Below, piece after piece: positions 5,710 to 45,795 of a stretch of DNA of 64,000 nucleotides. Origin of the DNA: Candidatus Woesearchaeota archaeon (GTDB taxonomy: Archaea; Nanoarchaeota; Nanoarchaeia; Woesearchaeales; JAGVZT01); contig JAFCGF010000002.1 in NCBI GenBank assembly GCA_017608295.1, positions 124,001 to 188,000 of the forward strand, in the 5' to 3' direction. The notes beneath the pieces were generated by a model. The model saw nothing but the letters and a program-made list of their open reading frames with translations. It searched no databases and had not been told where the DNA came from. Within the stretch, counting starts at the first letter, position 1. Every line of letters begins with the position of its first letter. The position numbers were made by a program, and so were the translations under genes.

Positions 5710-5807
5710 TTTGTTTCGAAATAGGATTTGAACCTCCGGTTCATGCACAGAATCCTTCGGATTCTGGCACCTTTCGCTACGCTCAAGGATTCCGGGCGTC
5801 GGCGTTT
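5710..5807. repeat. Hairpin-bearing insert bounded by a duplicate of the tRNA-Ser 3' end
   Basis: Directly after tRNA-Ser are about 80 bases followed by CCGGGCGTCGGCGTTT (5792-5807), a near copy of the tRNA end CCGGGTCGCGGCGTTT (5697-5712). The insert holds a perfect 8-bp hairpin with a three-base loop (5748-5766) and a T-arm-like GGATTTGAACC (5724-5734). Read on the minus strand, the hairpin and following bases resemble the insert downstream of tRNA-Val. It looks like a small insertion at a tRNA end with target duplication. Confidence 0.5.
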
Positions 5808-6467: not shown

Positions 6468-7418
6468 TCATTTTTTTTTAATACTTTGCTTGTATTTTCC
6501 TATTTCTTCCCTAGTGCTATGCCATATGCCATTGATTTTTGTAGCTGGCAGCACACCTCTCCGTGCCAGCAAGCTCAGATACTCCTGGGAATGTGGTGTT
6601 TCTTCAGCAAGAACAGATAACGGCAGCAGTTCATTTTTCTTTGTAGTCCTTGTCAAGGCAGCTATGTATCGTATGAGGGATTCTTCTACTCTCAAAGCCA
6701 TAAAATCTACGAACACTTTCAGATTGCCAAAATGGGCCTTTTCCAGGCAATCAAAGTACTTTTTTCTGTCCCGGGACCTTATGGTGATTGGAGGATAGCC
6801 TTTACTCATCAGGATCAAATTGCATAACAGCCTTGCCACTCTTCCGTTTCCATCAACAAAAGGATGGATCCTGGCGAGCTCATGGTGCGCAAAGGCTGCT
6901 AATTCAATAGAGTTATACTTCTCTGGGTTAGTGTTCAGGGAATGGACCAGATTGCCCATCTCGCTCCCGACCTTGTAGGGAGGAGTCGGTTTCAACCGCG
7001 AGCCGACTATCCGGTTCTGGGATGTTTTGTATTTCCCAGCCCAGCGATTGGAGATTCCCTTCAAGGTAATCCTGTGCAATGTGAGGATGTCTGCTTCCTT
7101 GACTTCCTTTTTCTTCTTGAGGAAACCCTCGACCCAACCTATAGCTTCTTCCTGGTTGGTTATATCAAGATGCTCCCTGAGGGTCTTCCCACCTATGGTG
7201 ATGCCTTCTTTCAATACAAGCCTGGTTTCATTCAAGGTCAGGGTATTCCCCTCAATTGAAGTCGAGTTATACACGTATTCCAATAGAAAGTCATCTTTCA
7301 ATTTTTTCAGCTGCAGCTTATCCAAGGGCCTAAGTGAGTTGAGGGCACTTTTCCTTTCACTTATCCTCTTGTCTAGCCTCTGTGACAGCATCATGCCCTG
7401 AGTGAGGTCTTTCAACAT
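6468..7418 (-). CDS. Fic family protein (AMP transferase fold) with N-terminal inhibitory helix
   Basis: A 316-residue Fic protein. The active-site motif HPFVDGNGR (residues 185-193) is intact, so transfer of AMP or another nucleotide phosphate to a protein hydroxyl is expected. An N-terminal inhibitory motif STSIEGN (52-58) of the S/TxxxEGN type should hold the enzyme in check (class II Fic). The C-terminal 60 residues look like a winged helix (LSVLAEETPHSQEYLSLLARR), common in solitary Fic proteins. There is no partner antitoxin gene beside it. Targets are unknown. The A-rich, TATA-like promoter lies between 7419 and 7440. Confidence 0.9.
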   Translation of the reverse strand: MLKDLTQGMMLSQRLDKRISERKSALNSLRPLDKLQLKKLKDDFLLEYVYNSTSIEGNTLTLNETRLVLKEGITIGGKTLREHLDITNQEEAIGWVEGFLKKKKEVKEADILTLHRITLKGISNRWAGKYKTSQNRIVGSRLKPTPPYKVGSEMGNLVHSLNTNPEKYNSIELAAFAHHELARIHPFVDGNGRVARLLCNLILMSKGYPPITIRSRDRKKYFDCLEKAHFGNLKVFVDFMALRVEESLIRYIAALTRTTKKNELLPLSVLAEETPHSQEYLSLLARRGVLPATKINGIWHSTREEIGKYKQSIKKK

Positions 7419-23044: not shown

Positions 23045-23117
23045 GGGCCCGTGGTCTAGTGGCTATGACGTTTCCTTGACGTGGAAAAGGTCGCCAGTTC
23101 AAATCTGGCCGGGCCCA
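23045..23117 (+). tRNA. tRNA-Val(GAC)
   Basis: A 73-base tRNA with perfect arms. The acceptor GGGCCCG pairs with CGGGCCC, the anticodon arm is TTTCC-TTGACGT-GGAAA with anticodon GAC, and the T-arm is GCCAG-TTCAAAT-CTGGC. The discriminator is A and CCA is not encoded. A second copy of the last 12 bases lies 68 bases downstream. Confidence 0.95.
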
Positions 23118-23185
23118 TTCGAACAAAGTGAGAATGGGGCTAGACGACCAGTAACGCGAAGCGTTACTGTGTATGGCCGGGCCCA
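23118..23185. repeat. Hairpin-bearing insert bounded by a duplicate of the tRNA-Val 3' end
   Basis: The tRNA end TGGCCGGGCCCA (23106-23117) recurs exactly at 23174-23185. The 56 bases between hold a perfect 9-bp hairpin with a GAA loop (23149-23169). The hairpin and flank (CCAG, stem, GAA, stem, CTGTGTATG, CCGG) resemble the minus-strand reading of the insert beside tRNA-Ser. Outside it, GAACAAAGT (23121-23129) and its complement ACTTTGTTC (23188-23196) form an inverted pair. Confidence 0.55.
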
Positions 23186-33604: not shown

Positions 33605-33645
33605 GGCTTTATAGAATTCAAAAGTGCTTATAATTTCTTTGGAAA

Positions 33646-33752
33646 GCCTCCGGAGGAATTGAGCAATAAAATGTTCATAAGAAGGGTAATTAAAGATAAT
33701 TAATGAACAAATTTTATGTTTTTTCTAAAAAATAGTTAATTTTTATAAATCT
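33646..33752 (+). repeat. Core plus left arm, copy 1
   Basis: About 107 bases starting GCCTCCGGAGGAATT. By eye it aligns along its length with 34720-34827 with few mismatches and one or two short gaps; the last 25 bases (AATAGTTAATTTTTATAAA region) are nearly identical. It is AT-rich, with a run of T that could act as a transcription terminator or recombinase arm site. Confidence 0.75.
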
Positions 33753-33840
33753 GCAGGGCGCTTTTCTTCAAGCCAGCAATAGCAAGGATGCAGCCCAAGA
33801 AGAAACCCAACTATATCGGCTGAGCTATTTTGTGGGCCCT

Positions 33841-34206
33841 TCAACGAAAGCGAAACTGCGGGACGAATTTTCCCTGGCACGCGGGCTCACCAAACTGCCG
33901 TACTGAGGGCTCGCCAGGCTGCTCTACTACGTCCTCGCCTAATTCCAGTAGAATCTCTTGCTGAATCTTCTCGCGCCAGTAGATTGTGGAGCCAAGCATG
34001 GGGTAGAACGCAATCCTCAGGTCCTCGTGTCGCTGGAAGCACATCCACATCTCGTGTTTTGAGTCTATGGTGCGATGCAGGATGGCAGCTTCCCCTACAT
34101 GGATAATCTCCTTCCCGCTGAGCACAAGATAAATCCCTGTAGATTCGCACTCAAAGCCCTCGCCGAGCGGGACCGGTTTCTTGAATGTGTAGCCTGCGAT
34201 TTTCAT
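33841..34206 (-). CDS. GIY-YIG-like small protein
   Basis: A 121-residue protein. Residues 22-40 (STGIYLVL, then IIHVGEAA) follow the two-strand GIY-YIG pattern, with IHVG in place of the usual YIG, and a YWREKIQQEIL helix later could supply the catalytic Arg/Glu. If active it would be a metal-dependent endonuclease; the shortness and altered motif make this tentative. The last 25 residues have little regular pattern. It is cargo of element A, with a TATA-like TTTTAGGTG promoter region before 34206 on the minus strand. Confidence 0.5.
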   Translation of the reverse strand: MKIAGYTFKKPVPLGEGFECESTGIYLVLSGKEIIHVGEAAILHRTIDSKHEMWMCFQRHEDLRIAFYPMLGSTIYWREKIQQEILLELGEDVVEQPGEPSVRQFGEPACQGKFVPQFRFR

Positions 34207-34345
34207 GGTATCACCTAAAATATAGCCTATTTCCAGCCTTTATAAAGGCTCGGCGCACTTGGAATTGCACTCCTCAGCAGCTCTTCACTAGGTTTGGCTG
34301 TTCTGTGCCTTGGGTCGCAGGGACATCATGAGTCTTGCCTTCTAG

Positions 34346-34591
34346 TTGGGAGATACGCTCTTGCAGCAGCTGAAGCTCGGTCTCACATCCGGTCGCGGTC
34401 CCACAGGGATTGCCGCTGCTGCATTATATGTTTCCGCGCTTCTCCACGGCGAGAAGAGGACACAGCGAGAAGTGGCTGAGGTCGCTGGCGTCACCGAAGT
34501 GACAATCCGCAACCGCTACAAGGAGCTTCTTAAGGAACTGAACCTGGAGAATCGGTTAAAGAAAGCGCAAGAAAAAGCAGCAAGGAAATGA
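34346..34591 (+). pseudogene. Remnant of transcription initiation factor TFB (second cyclin repeat)
   Basis: The translation matches only the end of archaeal [17 protein letters not shown] and [23 protein letters not shown], the recognition helix region that contacts the BRE. A full TFB has about 300 residues with a zinc ribbon and two cyclin repeats; here only about 80 remain. The frame begins after a TAG (34343-34345) with TTG and no ATG, and the preceding DNA does not encode the missing part in any frame I checked. It was probably captured as a 3' fragment. Expression as a small dominant-negative protein is possible. Confidence 0.75.
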
Positions 34592-34634
34592 CTCGAGTTC
34601 CCTATGTGTCCCTCTCCCCAGGGGGCGTTTTTCA

Positions 34635-34719
34635 GGGGGCTTTGAACCCTCTGGTGGAAAACATGAAAAATGCGGAGAAGCGCTGAAACGCTCGAAATCG
34701 ATAACTAGAAGCCCAGAGA
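34635..34719 (+). repeat. Right arm, copy 1 (end of element A)
   Basis: About 85 bases closely matching 35988-36073. Both start with GGCTTTGAACCC, which itself resembles a degenerate tRNA T-arm, and end with TGATAACTAGAAGCCCAG-like sequence just before the core. The stretch before element A's left core does not match it. Confidence 0.75.
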
Positions 34720-34827
34720 GCCTCCGGAGAGATTTAGCACTAAAAGGTTCAGAAGAAGGGTAAATAGATGACAATTAATGAAGAAATTTTGTGTTTTTTC
34801 TCAAAAATAGTTAATTTTTATAAACCT
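34720..34827 (+). repeat. Core plus left arm, copy 2
   Basis: About 108 bases starting GCCTCCGGAGAGATTT, matching 33646-33752. It separates the two elements and lies just upstream of the promoter of the nucleotidyltransferase gene. Confidence 0.75.
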
Positions 34828-34840
34828 AGAGACAGAAAGA

Positions 34841-34849
34841 TTTATATAA
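34841..34849 (+). promoter_or_regulatory. TATA box for the nucleotidyltransferase/HEPN pair
   Basis: TTTATATAA with an expected transcription start near 34870. The ATG at 34883 follows closely and CCAGGAG just before it may serve as ribosome binding site. Confidence 0.65.
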
Positions 34850-34882
34850 CTTAGAGTTAGAGTAGTCTAACCAGGAGTTAGA

Positions 34883-35476
34883 ATGGAATTGAACAAGAAT
34901 GAGCAGAAAGCGCTGAAAAACATCTTCACAGACTACCTAACGGACTACAATGCCTACAACATGAAGGACAGGCTCAGAGTGAGCGATGTGGGAAGCCTAA
35001 AGCTGTTGAAGCGGTTGAAAGAAAAGAAGCTCCTCACTGCACGGAAGATGGGGAATGCCACTTTCTATAAGGCGAACCTTGAGAATGAGTATACCCTCAA
35101 GCTCCTAGAGCTACTGTTCCTCGACCACAGCCATCTTTCTAATTTTGTGAGGGGATGGATAGAAGATCTCAAGTCATTCAACAATGCCAAAGGCATTCTC
35201 CTGTTCGGCTCGATTCTGAAGAAAGAGAAAAGCGCCAACGACGTTGACGTCTGCTTTGTCTTGGAGAAGCACGAGGACTACAAGAAGGTGCAGAAGAGTG
35301 TAGAGCAGATGAACCAAAAGAGCAGGCAGGATATTCATCCCCTCTACCTGACAGAAGAGGATTTGAAAAATAAATTGCTAGAGAATGACAGCCCAATCAT
35401 CGAGATGGTGCGGTCGTGCGTGGTCGTCTTAGGGCAGGAGCTTTTCGTGAGGGTGCTGAAAGAGGTGCAGTCATGA
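34883..35476 (+). CDS. Winged-helix/minimal nucleotidyltransferase (MNT) protein
   Basis: A 197-residue protein. Residues 1-80 look like a winged helix (VGSLKLLKRLKEKKLLTARKMGNATFY). Residues 105-190 form a polymerase-beta-like nucleotidyltransferase: LLFGS followed about nine residues later by NDVDVCF, so Ser and the two Asp are in place. In MNT/HEPN systems the MNT partner transfers AMP to or otherwise silences the HEPN partner. Its stop overlaps the HEPN start as ATGA, so both are translated together. The winged helix could also regulate the operon. Confidence 0.83.
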   Translation: MELNKNEQKALKNIFTDYLTDYNAYNMKDRLRVSDVGSLKLLKRLKEKKLLTARKMGNATFYKANLENEYTLKLLELLFLDHSHLSNFVRGWIEDLKSFNNAKGILLFGSILKKEKSANDVDVCFVLEKHEDYKKVQKSVEQMNQKSRQDIHPLYLTEEDLKNKLLENDSPIIEMVRSCVVVLGQELFVRVLKEVQS

Positions 35477-35985
35477 GCAAGTCAAAAGCGAAGAAGCATA
35501 CAGAATGGTGCCTGAGGAAGGCGGAGACGGAACTGGCAAAGGAAGGAAAGCACAGAGGCCTTGTGCGGACTGAGCCTGACAGCGCTCTCGCTGCCAAACA
35601 CATCGAGAAGGCGGAGCATAACCTCCAGGTGTTCCTCGACAACAGGAAGCTCAAGCACTACGACTGGACCATCACCATGGGTTTCTATGTCATGTATGAT
35701 TGCTGCCTGGCCATCACTGCCCTCTTTGGATACGAGAGCCGCAACCAGAAGTGCACCCTCGCGCTCATCGAGAGCCTTATTGAGGACGGGGAGATTGATA
35801 AGGGCTATCTAAGATATCTTAAGGCGCTTGAGTCAGACGCTGAGGATGATGAAGGCCAGATCCTTCCGCTCAGGGAGAAATACCAGTACTCTCCGGTCAT
35901 GGAGATTGACAGGCAGAAGGTCAAGGAACTGCTCGGCCTGTGTCAGGACATGATTAAGGAAACCAAGGGAATAGTCCACAGCTAA
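35473..35985 (+). CDS. HEPN-domain protein, partner of the MNT
   Basis: A 170-residue helical protein of the HEPN type, with the typical central helices FYVMYDCCLAITALFGYES. In toxic HEPN RNases a motif R-X4-6-H follows this helix; here it reads SRNQKCT, with Gln where the His is usual, so ribonuclease activity is doubtful. The start is the ATG at 35473 overlapping the MNT stop. The N-terminal 60 residues are charged helices. The pair is the sole cargo of element B. Confidence 0.78.
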   Translation: MSKSKAKKHTEWCLRKAETELAKEGKHRGLVRTEPDSALAAKHIEKAEHNLQVFLDNRKLKHYDWTITMGFYVMYDCCLAITALFGYESRNQKCTLALIESLIEDGEIDKGYLRYLKALESDAEDDEGQILPLREKYQYSPVMEIDRQKVKELLGLCQDMIKETKGIVHS

Positions 35986-35987
35986 TA

Positions 35988-36073
35988 GGGAGGCTTTGAA
36001 CCCCCTGGCACAAAAATTGAAAAACGCGGAGACGCGCTGAAACGCTTGAAATTGATAACTAGAAGCCCAGCAA
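35988..36073 (+). repeat. Right arm, copy 2 (end of element B)
   Basis: About 86 bases matching 34635-34719 closely, ending at the 3' end of the tRNA-Thr gene. It starts directly after the HEPN stop codon. Confidence 0.75.
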
Positions 36074-36146
36074 GCCTCCGGAGGGATTTGAACCCCCGAC
36101 CTGCGGATTACAAGTCCGCCGCAATACCGGTCTATGCTACGGAGGC
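36074..36146 (-). tRNA. tRNA-Thr(TGT)
   Basis: A 73-base tRNA on the minus strand. The acceptor GCCTCCG pairs with CGGAGGC, the anticodon arm is GCGGA-CTTGTAA-TCCGC with anticodon TGT, and the T-arm is GGGGG-TTCAAAT-CCCTC. CCA is not encoded. A TATA-like CTATTTAAAAC lies at 36173-36183. Its 3' end supplies the core that recurs at 34720 and 33646, and the gene itself is intact. Confidence 0.95.
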
Positions 36147-37124: not shown

Positions 37125-38720
37125 TTAGAACTCCTTGAGCTGGGACTGCCGAATAAGGGGCTGTTCTTCTGCTGTGGGTTCCTGTTTGGATGCATCACCA
37201 ACTCCGAGCTGCTCCCTGACTGATGCTGCCAGCTTATTGCCTATAACAGCTTCAAGTGCTCCTGGCTTTGCCCTCTTCATATCAGCGAGTGTCTTGAAGC
37301 CTGCAAGATGGAGCTGGCGGCTTCTTACGCGGCCTATGCCCTTAAGCTGCAACACAGGAAGGAGCTCTTCCTTGACACCATACTTGAGCCGAACGCGAAG
37401 CTTCTGCAGCTGCGAGATGAGCTTCTTGAGCAACAACACCTTGCCAAGCTCGACAAGGGAATACACGAGCCAGTCCGCAGAGTTGAGCTTCATCTTCAAT
37501 TCTCCGGGGCGGATACGGTAGGTGTCAAAAAGGAAGTGCTCATCGCGCTCTTCAATCCATTCATGCAACACAGTCGCAGTTTTTACTGAGCTGAGGAAAT
37601 CCTCGTACTGGCTGTTGTACAGCGTGGGCTCATCAGTAAGCAGAAGCTCGTGCTTCTCGAGCAGGACATCCTGGATAAGCTCATACTCTTTTGTACGCAC
37701 ATTCAGCTTCGGCCTCATCTCCAATGTCGATGACACCAGGTGAAGGAATGAAAATGGCTCTGTGGGCTGTTTCATCGCCCTTCTCAGGCCAGTGATGAGC
37801 TGGTGCGCGGTCAAAGGGTCGAGGTAAAGCTGCGCCACTCGTAAACCCAATCGGGTGGCCTTGACTTTGACATCTTCAATCTCATCAGCCGAAATAAAAT
37901 CATCTGAGAGGCCTGTCGCGGTGATGAACTCCCAGCCCTGCAGGAGCTTAAGCATCTTGTCTATGATGGCAGCGAGCTTCTCCATGTCGCTGTACTGGTG
38001 GGCCCAGAATGTTCTGGAGAAAAAGTCGAGGATGCCTCTCCTCGAGCGGACAATATTGGTCGCGATAAGTGAAAGGAGATGAACACGGAGAACAGGCTCA
38101 ACAGCAAGCTTGGAGTAAATCTCTTCAGGCTCCCCCTGCACATAACGCTCAAGGAGCTCGTTGCGCTCATCAGGGGTAGCAGCGATAAGGATGGCCTCAC
38201 CGTGCTCGTCATTGAAGTCAGGCCTTCCGCTCCTGCCTGCATACTGCAAATACTCCAGGACAGGAATCCACCGCAGCCCGCGTCTGCCCTCATAGCGGCG
38301 CATGCTCTTCATGATTGTGCGATAGCTTGGCAAGTTCACACCGTATGCGAGAGTCGGAGTGCATGCGATGATGCGTATCGTTCCTTTTCTGAACTCGTCC
38401 TCGATGAGATCGCGCTGCTTCTGGGCAAGCCCTGCGTGATGGAAGACAATTCCTCTCTTCGCGCACTTCGCGAGGCGCTCACATTGCTTCGTCGGTCTTG
38501 ATAATGCCCTAAGAATCTTCTGGGAGAGAAGCTCGTGCTCAGGATTCCGGTTCTTGATTTTCTTCGCGATATCTTCTGCCGCCTTCTCAGCAGAGCGCTT
38601 GCTCATCATGAACACGAGGGCCTGCTTATCTCGCTCAATAGTGTCAAGAACGAGGTCTATCAAAGGCTCTCCAATATGCTGCTTCACCTTGAGCGGCTTG
38701 CCCTTGTGCTGATGAGACAT
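37125..38720 (-). CDS. Hel308-type helicase lacking the first RecA lobe
   Basis: A 531-residue protein that aligns with Hel308/Ski2-like helicases only from the second RecA lobe onward: LVFMMSKRSAEKAA, FHHAGL, TPTLAYGVNLP (motif V) and QYAGRSGRP (motif VI). Then follow the winged helix and ratchet regions and a helix-hairpin-helix (LKGIGRVRSRQLH). Walker A, the DExH box and the rest of lobe 1 are missing, and the upstream gene is unrelated. Alone it cannot bind and hydrolyse ATP normally, so a separate lobe-1 protein may exist. The C-terminal QSQLKEF is PIP-box-like. Confidence 0.85.
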   Translation of the reverse strand: MSHQHKGKPLKVKQHIGEPLIDLVLDTIERDKQALVFMMSKRSAEKAAEDIAKKIKNRNPEHELLSQKILRALSRPTKQCERLAKCAKRGIVFHHAGLAQKQRDLIEDEFRKGTIRIIACTPTLAYGVNLPSYRTIMKSMRRYEGRRGLRWIPVLEYLQYAGRSGRPDFNDEHGEAILIAATPDERNELLERYVQGEPEEIYSKLAVEPVLRVHLLSLIATNIVRSRRGILDFFSRTFWAHQYSDMEKLAAIIDKMLKLLQGWEFITATGLSDDFISADEIEDVKVKATRLGLRVAQLYLDPLTAHQLITGLRRAMKQPTEPFSFLHLVSSTLEMRPKLNVRTKEYELIQDVLLEKHELLLTDEPTLYNSQYEDFLSSVKTATVLHEWIEERDEHFLFDTYRIRPGELKMKLNSADWLVYSLVELGKVLLLKKLISQLQKLRVRLKYGVKEELLPVLQLKGIGRVRSRQLHLAGFKTLADMKRAKPGALEAVIGNKLAASVREQLGVGDASKQEPTAEEQPLIRQSQLKEF

Positions 38721-44697: not shown

Positions 44698-45795
44698 ATG
44701 AAAAAGAGACTGCTAATCTGTTTCACTGTCATTATGGTATTAGGATTATTCCTTAGCGGCTGCGCTGAGAAGGAATGCAAGGTTGCCGAGGACTGCATGT
44801 CAAAGACATGCTTCAATGCCAAGTGCAAGGAAAACGCCTGCACGTATTCTCCGATAGCGGAGTGCTGCGGCAACGAGAGATGTGACCAGAGCGAATCCTA
44901 CGAGGGCTGTTCAGTGGACTGCCCAAACTGCGACGATAACAACGAATGTACCACTGACTCATTTGATTATCATACGCAGGAATGCGTGAATGGGGCAATT
45001 CCCGGTGTGGCCTGCTGCGGGAACGGTGTATGTGAGCTGAGCGAGGATTATGAAAGCTGCACGCGGGACTGCCCTAACTGCGATGACAATAACGATTGCA
45101 CCAGGGACTCATACGACCGCCACACACAGGAATGTGTGAATAAGGCCATCATCCCCTGCTGCGGCAACGGATTATGTGATGAAGGAGTAGAAACACGTAA
45201 TAACTGCGAAGCAGACTGCCCTGACTGCGATGACAGCAACAAGATGACTGCAGACAGCTTTGACTACGATAGCCAAGAGTGCGAATACGTGAAGTACTGT
45301 TTCTTCGAGGATTTTGAGGAGGGAACCCCTAGCTGGCTGGATCCAAGATGGATTATTGTAGACGGTGTGTTAACTATGGCTGAGGGTGTTGACCGCGCCA
45401 GCGCCGACTTTGGTAATCATCAATGGACAGACTACACTCTCAAATTAAAAATTAAACTTGAACAAGGAACATCAAATGTGTATGTAAGGGCAGGGCATGG
45501 AGACGGCGCCTATGGCTACGGCGTCACGATTTCTAAGAGTGCCCTAACTTTGTGGAAAGATATAGATGAAGGCATCACACTGGAGGGTATTAAGATCGAT
45601 TTGGATTCAAACCAGTTTAATGACATACAAATAGAGGTAAAAGGAAACAACATTAGGGTTTATGTTAATGGTAATCTAGAAATAGATTACACCGACACTG
45701 ATAATCCCCTCCTAGATGGACGTGCACGCATGGGGGTATATGACTTAGGAATATATCTCGATGACATCTCGGTGGAAGGGCTATGTGCCAAATAG
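44698..45795 (+). CDS. Lipoprotein with three Cys-rich repeats and a lectin-like domain
   Basis: A 365-residue exported protein. The signal segment ends in the lipobox FLSGC (about residues 18-22). Residues 60-190 hold repeats of about 45 residues built on CCGNGxC, a DCPNCDDNN-like segment and TQECVN, a disulfide-bonded pattern seen in archaeal and bacterial surface proteins. The last 165 residues form a beta-sandwich (FFEDFEEG, YTLKLKIKLEQGTSNVYVRAG, IRVYVNGNLEID, LDDISVEG) of the concanavalin/LamG-like kind, so sugar binding is plausible. GAGGTGA just before the ATG is a good ribosome binding site. Confidence 0.8.
   Translation: MKKRLLICFTVIMVLGLFLSGCAEKECKVAEDCMSKTCFNAKCKENACTYSPIAECCGNERCDQSESYEGCSVDCPNCDDNNECTTDSFDYHTQECVNGAIPGVACCGNGVCELSEDYESCTRDCPNCDDNNDCTRDSYDRHTQECVNKAIIPCCGNGLCDEGVETRNNCEADCPDCDDSNKMTADSFDYDSQECEYVKYCFFEDFEEGTPSWLDPRWIIVDGVLTMAEGVDRASADFGNHQWTDYTLKLKIKLEQGTSNVYVRAGHGDGAYGYGVTISKSALTLWKDIDEGITLEGIKIDLDSNQFNDIQIEVKGNNIRVYVNGNLEIDYTDTDNPLLDGRARMGVYDLGIYLDDISVEGLCAK

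Follow-up and report, generated by a model that had tools for sequence, protein, structure and literature searches.

The 64,000-nucleotide stretch analysed here (contig JAFCGF010000002.1, positions 124,001 to 188,000, of the Candidatus Woesearchaeota archaeon assembly GCA_017608295.1; hereafter the window) contains two tandem units without a recombinase gene, stacked on the 3' end of a tRNA-Thr(TGT) gene. This confirms the original prediction, which was made from the sequence letters before any search. The intact tRNA-Thr(TGT) lies at 36073-36146 on the minus strand, and its last 12 nt (36073-36084) form the rightmost of three short repeats, here called cores. Core 1 (33645-33656, minus strand) is a displaced copy of these 12 nt, identical at 12 of 12 positions, while core 2 (34719-34730, minus strand) is identical at 11 of 12 and has a single mismatch to the last 17 nt of the tRNA. 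Three same-orientation copies of the tRNA end were thus correctly predicted; their starts lie one base earlier than proposed (33645, 34719, and 36073), and they are near-copies and not exact 16-mers. Of 20,000 random 12-mers drawn from the window as a control, 25 recur on the same strand in the 3 kb downstream.

The order of elements on the plus strand is core 1, right arm (33658-33752), cargo of unit 1, left arm (34634-34716), core 2, right arm (34732-34827), cargo of unit 2, left arm (35987-36070), and core 3, which is part of the tRNA. Measured from core start to core start, unit 1 is 1,074 bp long and unit 2 is 1,354 bp. The units lie head to tail in the same orientation; both arms are common to them, their cargo is unrelated, and local alignment confines their similarity to arms and cores. 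A direct repeat of the tRNA end closes each cassette. The left arm of unit 1, core 2, and the right arm of unit 2 meet at 34634-34827, in a layout that would correspond to the joint expected in an excised circle.

How similar are the arms? With the cores excluded, the right arms are identical in 84 of 96 alignment columns (11 mismatches and one gap) and the left arms in 73 of 84 (10 mismatches and one gap). The local alignment scores are 127 and 111, respectively, and the highest scores among 1,000 dinucleotide shuffles of each are 31 and 32. Sequence outside the array behaves differently from the arms: the region left of core 1 has no similarity to either left arm (its scores are equalled or exceeded in 233 and 26 of 300 shuffles), the region right of the tRNA has none to the right arm of unit 1 (151/300), and the region right of core 3 has none to the right arm of unit 2 (61/300). 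Arm scores so far above the shuffles, together with dissimilar outer flanks, indicate two units that have both arms in common, and on these points the alignments bear out what had been proposed: two units with fixed arms, one orientation, and different cargo at a tRNA 3' end. Ungapped mismatches number 11 of 95 in the right arms and 10 of 83 in the left arms. Divergence is therefore alike on the two sides, as expected when each unit has been inherited whole.

The arms differ in composition, with a GC content of 17-25% in the right arms and 49% in the left arms. The inner ends of the left arms (34634-34655 in unit 1 and 35987-36008 in unit 2) resemble the T arm of tRNA-Thr, with the core GGGTTCAAA; this resemblance score is reached by 8 of 2,000 shuffles for unit 1 and by 0 of 2,000 for unit 2. 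A self-comparison of the window found no further copy of either arm. TGAAA repeats also occur in the left arm, two in unit 1 and three in unit 2, and are not used as evidence here.

The cargo of unit 2 is, to judge from profile matches and motifs, a compact and complete operon with a predicted promoter of its own. The first gene (34883-35476, plus strand) encodes a 197-aa protein with a winged-helix-turn-helix-like N-terminal part, for which there are weak profile matches only, and an MNT nucleotidyltransferase domain in which the GS-X9-D-X-D motif is intact (residues 109-122). The start of the second gene (35473-35985, plus strand) overlaps the stop codon of the first, and its 170-aa product is a HEPN protein (PF05168). 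The matches to PF18765 and PF01909 (MNT) and to PF05168 (HEPN) are close to their cut-offs, and the nucleotidyltransferase also has a match (6.8e-14) to PDC-M05A, a candidate defence family of PADLOC; the pair had been recognised as MNT/HEPN in the original prediction, and the profiles agree. The R.{4,6}H pattern is absent from the HEPN protein; according to PMC3710099, D replaces H in several PF05168 members, and MNT, the predicted antitoxin, nearly always precedes HEPN. On the same strand, a TATA-like promoter box (34841-34849) and an operator-like inverted repeat, GTTAGA-GTAG-TCTAAC (34856-34871), precede the operon, and the left arm begins 1 nt past the HEPN stop codon. The cargo is thus predicted to be an autoregulated toxin-antitoxin-like module that may aid the persistence of the unit.

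A search with the MNT protein returned 72 proteins: the query itself, 68 at 52-66% identity, and three at 32-34%. The family is thus widespread, and the four relatives that carry a source name are all archaeal (two Nanoarchaeota, one Woesearchaeota, and one 'archaeon'). No relative was found in viral contigs, plasmids, or phages, and no solved structure resembling MNT or HEPN by sequence was found. Four homologues (P0038, P0041, P0046, and P0058), which alone among those listed exceed 206 aa, have predicted early starts and can be back-translated onto 34828-34882, with scores reached by 0, 2, 1, and 1 of 300 shuffles, respectively. In all four, which are those with N-termini long enough, the upstream homology starts at 34828-34836, just inside the right arm; P0038 and P0046 extend 7 and 12 residues further, and these show no alignment with the arm. 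This modestly supports counting the right arm as part of the unit and the promoter as part of the cargo.

The cargo of unit 1 is of a different kind. An open reading frame (ORF) on the minus strand (33841-34206) encodes a 121-aa protein of a rare family: a search of 5.8 billion proteins returned, apart from the query, three relatives at 63-79% identity. The label GIY-YIG-like that it had been given found no support: PF01541 matches none of the four family members in Pfam at E<=1, and no GIY-YIG match was obtained in PHROGs at E<=0.01 or in NCBIfam at E<=0.1. No other credible family emerged from the profile libraries, the stray matches to Tospovirus NS-S (E 0.3), HigA (E 0.008), and purple acid phosphatase (E ~0.8) being far below cut-off or near chance. 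An AlphaFold model built from the four-sequence alignment is too poor to use (mean predicted local distance difference test score 40.5). The second feature, at 34346-34591 on the plus strand, corresponds to the 3' part of a tfb (TFIIB) gene (PF00382, 3.1e-16), as had been suspected. It covers positions 248-309 of the 312 in model NF001658, i.e., the last ~62, and in-frame stop codons stand immediately upstream; the piece is therefore a C-terminal gene fragment, and unit 1 looks partly decayed.

Is there a recombinase that could have moved these units? None was found within 33645-36073, in agreement with the earlier claim that the units contain no integrase, and no recombinase, transposase, or viral structural family was found among 65 proteins of the window scanned with profiles at thresholds from 0.1 down to 1e-8. 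These comprise 63 of the 70 greedily chosen non-overlapping ORFs of at least 70 aa (eight of them scanned with NCBIfam only) and two further ORFs. A regular expression for tyrosine-recombinase motifs has no match in any window ORF of at least 60 aa. Several window proteins have no family match, so a very divergent recombinase could be among them. Neither unit has a tyrosine integrase of its own, as an autonomous element would. The array contains only four genes or gene fragments, none of which matches a transfer family. By the features tested, it conforms to the sequence definition of a cis-mobilizable element (CIME), with neither integration nor transfer genes and with flanks that resemble attL and attR.

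What process has produced this arrangement? Site-specific insertion into the 3' end of a tRNA gene leaves just such traces: cores taken from the tRNA end, a tRNA that stays intact, an arm on either side of each unit, and cargo that is unrelated. Since there is no recombinase inside the units, the enzyme was either lost or supplied from outside, by a related complete element, by a virus, or by the host as an Xer-type enzyme. The explanation considered probable is that two integrase-less units, sharing a right arm of ~96 bp and a left arm of ~84 bp, were inserted successively at the tRNA-Thr 3' end by a site-specific recombinase acting in trans. The need for such an enzyme fits the anatomy of the array, and insertion in trans is favoured because unit 2 is, as far as its sequence tells, a complete operon packed between the arms. 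Further points in its favour are the breadth of the MNT family, the lack of a recombinase among the 65 proteins scanned, the exact 3'-end repeat at a second tRNA gene of the window (tRNA-Val, see below), and the existence elsewhere of tandem integrase-less elements at tRNA or tmRNA ends (PMC3146451, PMC5704250, and PMC10872708).

Under insertion in trans, a unit would be excised as a small circle, with left arm, core, and right arm forming a single attachment site of ~195 bp. The recombinase would bind the arms and exchange strands within the 12-16-bp core, and the tRNA 3' end would be restored at each insertion. A later unit would enter beside the tRNA, which would make unit 2 the younger by position. 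The enzyme, most probably of the tyrosine family, would be supplied by a related full-length element or a virus elsewhere. According to the Islander paper, only tyrosine integrases are known to target tRNA or tmRNA genes, and a host Xer-type enzyme is named as an option for some islands (PMC4383910); the ssrA islands of Dehalococcoides, however, encode a serine recombinase (PMC3146451).

The main rival to insertion in trans remains decay, in which larger elements with an integrase inserted themselves, the integrase was then deleted, and arms with a little cargo were left as an immobile or cis-mobilizable remnant. Decay is the standard account of integrated archaeal elements without an integrase (excerpt of PMC8371274) and of CIMEs (excerpt of PMC5704250), and the gene fragment in unit 1 agrees with it. 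However, decay would require two separate deletions that left similarly small units in which the shared sequence ends at the same arm borders, and the apparently complete operon of unit 2, with its predicted promoter, lies 1 nt from the left arm. Decay is for these reasons rated unlikely, while deserving serious consideration.

Another way of obtaining two units without a second action of a recombinase in trans is tandem duplication of one unit, for example by unequal crossing-over between cores, followed by replacement of one interior through the arms. A head-to-tail array in which both arms are about equally diverged would agree with such a history. Yet the interiors retain no shared trace, the units matching in arms and cores only, and the replacement would in any case need a donor with the same arms and other cargo, which again implies a family of units; duplication is accordingly judged improbable.

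That the arms are instead repeated signals for expression or RNA processing beside a tRNA, or part of an integron-like element or an inverted-repeat transposon, is very improbable: the right arm is AT-rich with a TATA-like sequence and the inner end of the left arm is T-arm-like, but the tRNA is the only Rfam family at gathering score, the left arm folds no better than its shuffles, the right-arm fold differs between the copies (z ~-2 in unit 1 and ~+0.8 in unit 2), and the nine inverted pairs listed include none that links the two ends of a unit. The left arm plus core, folded as DNA in the search for an integron attC site, such as also makes up the clusters of attC sites lacking integrases (CALINs), gave z scores of 0.44, -0.54, 0.00, and -0.80 over both units and both strands. 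Folded as RNA, the minus strand of the left arm reaches z -2.23 in unit 2 and z -0.25 in unit 1 and has no fold common to both. The dismissal of integrons and terminal repeats in the original prediction is thereby upheld.

Insertion in trans has itself several observations to contend with. No recombinase, related complete element, relative of the locus, empty tRNA-Thr site, or excised circle has been seen, and an arm divergence of 12% means that neither insertion need be recent. The TFB fragment and the non-coding filler in unit 1 suggest decay, the back-translation of the promoter region scores only modestly above shuffles, and a comparable repeat at the tRNA-Val(GAC) gene of the window (see below) encloses a spacer unlike the Thr arms. 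Further copies of the arms have been sought in genome and viral collections, which were scanned with exact patterns only. The left-arm pattern has no match in viral contigs and none in genome contigs, among which the host genome and its close relatives apparently do not figure; the right-arm patterns have 0 and 1 matches in viral contigs. The single match is inside a coding gene of a phage, on a contig of 26% GC that lacks a tRNA over the 11,760 bases examined, and is attributed to chance. A blastn search with 34600-34860 returned no phage and nothing credible among plasmids, the matches to 48 nt of the right arm in two plasmid records of Borreliella mayonii (83%, E 0.005) again being regarded as chance. 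The central prediction, that the same arms occur elsewhere with other cargo, is thus unproven, and the arms come so far from one locus only.

Two of the four tRNA genes in the window have 3'-end repeats. The last 12 nt of tRNA-Val(GAC) (23106-23117), TGGCCGGGCCCA, are repeated without mismatch on the same strand 56 bp downstream (23174-23185); of 20,000 random 12-mers, 6 recur on their own strand within 100 nt. The spacer shares nothing with the Thr arms, so the Val repeat need not belong to the same system. No nearby copy of the 3' end was detected, at up to 2 mismatches, for tRNA-Ser or tRNA-Thr(GGT). As a separate observation, the only two perfect triloop hairpins in the window with stems of at least 8 bp (5748-5766 and 23149-23169) sit 37 bp past the end of tRNA-Ser and 31 bp past the end of tRNA-Val. 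Hairpins with short loops (3-5 nt) number five in total, and ten block shuffles give 1-6. A gene of the Fic/DOC family (6468-7418) starts 104 bp downstream of tRNA-Thr(GGT).

The genes of the window are archaeal housekeeping genes, among them fibrillarin, S19e, L31e, V-type ATPase, DNA polymerase B, and ATP-dependent ligase. Among the best 120 of 1,758 relatives of the polymerase, the three closest are 73-75% identical to it, and most of those with names, at ~48-52%, belong to Woesearchaeota or Nanoarchaeota, while two carry a bacterial label. The window therefore probably derives from a Woesearchaeota-like archaeon. To the right of the array, a Hel308-like helicase ORF of 531 aa (37125-38720) matches Helicase_C, HTH_61, and domain 4 and has no match to the first helicase domain; it looks N-terminally short. 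A scan of the genome contigs for relatives of this helicase gave 33 peptide-pattern stretches, none of which was confirmed. Two adjacent stretches of ~225 bp, 69% identical, lie at 44863-45235 within an ORF at 44698-45795.

The kind of arrangement seen at tRNA-Thr(TGT) is already known, and more so than the original prediction implied: CIMEs, integrase-less ssrA islands, and the tRNA cassettes of additive islands all have features in common with it, judging from excerpts of the papers cited in this comparison. CIMEs of Streptococcus and other genera likewise lack integration and transfer genes, keep attL and attR, and accrete in tandem at a gene 3' end. They are, however, described as decayed bacterial integrative and conjugative or integrative and mobilizable elements, while the units here measure ~1 kb, have one small cargo module, and are probably from a DPANN archaeon (PMC5704250). 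The ssrA islands of Dehalococcoides form a tandem array behind one RNA gene with 20-bp 3'-end repeats, ~85 bp around the repeats are conserved, and 15 islands have no integration module. By contrast, these islands are bacterial, 16 sister islands carry the module with its serine recombinase, and the cargo named is mainly reductive dehalogenase genes (PMC3146451).

Additive islands of Methylopumilus, Actinomarinales, and Alteromonas contain cassettes at a tRNA, each with a direct repeat of the tRNA end. In Methylopumilus these range from 330 bp and one coding sequence upward (PMC10872708), and the Actinomarinales have small tRNA-targeted cassettes (PMC7771536). These islands differ in being bacterial, and in that the excerpts describe the tRNA repeats but not fixed arms on both sides of a cassette (PMC10872708, PMC7771536, and PMC4119200). 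Among archaea, the cryptic integrated elements of Thaumarchaeota are small, rely on site-specific recombination, and are mentioned in arrays that re-use one site; the smallest is 2.6 kb and encodes an integrase, whereas the units here are half that size and encode none (PMC6563490). Tycheposons also integrate at tRNA genes with cargo, as mentioned in PMC10872708 and PMC11389934, but span 4-200 kbp, and one that is described has a tyrosine recombinase (PMC10872708). Archaeal integron cassettes and CALINs similarly place small cargo units in a row and have their recombinase supplied from elsewhere; in the present units, the left arm has no attC-like fold and the target is a tRNA end (PMC9668308). 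The novel features are two fixed arms flanking both ~1-kb units, a cargo of single modules, and a likely DPANN host. No paper on tRNA-integrated mobile elements with an integrase in DPANN or Woesearchaeota was found in the open-licence literature searched, which is not proof of absence from print.

Do these units belong to a larger system? A tentative and rather doubtful extension is that DPANN archaea possess a cassette system in which a single recombinase acting in trans carries ~1-kb units from one tRNA gene to another. These units would be defined only by two fixed arms and a 12-bp core from a tRNA 3' end, and would be loaded with defence or toxin-antitoxin modules. Such a system would be an integron-like capture platform with a tRNA as the insertion site and an arm end that mimics the T arm.

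The genomes of DPANN archaea are reduced, and little is known of how these organisms acquire genes. If the units at tRNA-Thr(TGT) were inserted in trans, they would be unusually small, helper-dependent cassettes that move toxin-antitoxin-like genes. Programs that search for islands, such as Islander, need an integrase gene and would readily overlook such units (PMC4383910). If the interpretation is true, left arm, tRNA-end core, and right arm would make a searchable signature, and if arm-defined units proved common in DPANN archaea, they would be among the smallest cargo carriers that depend on a recombinase.

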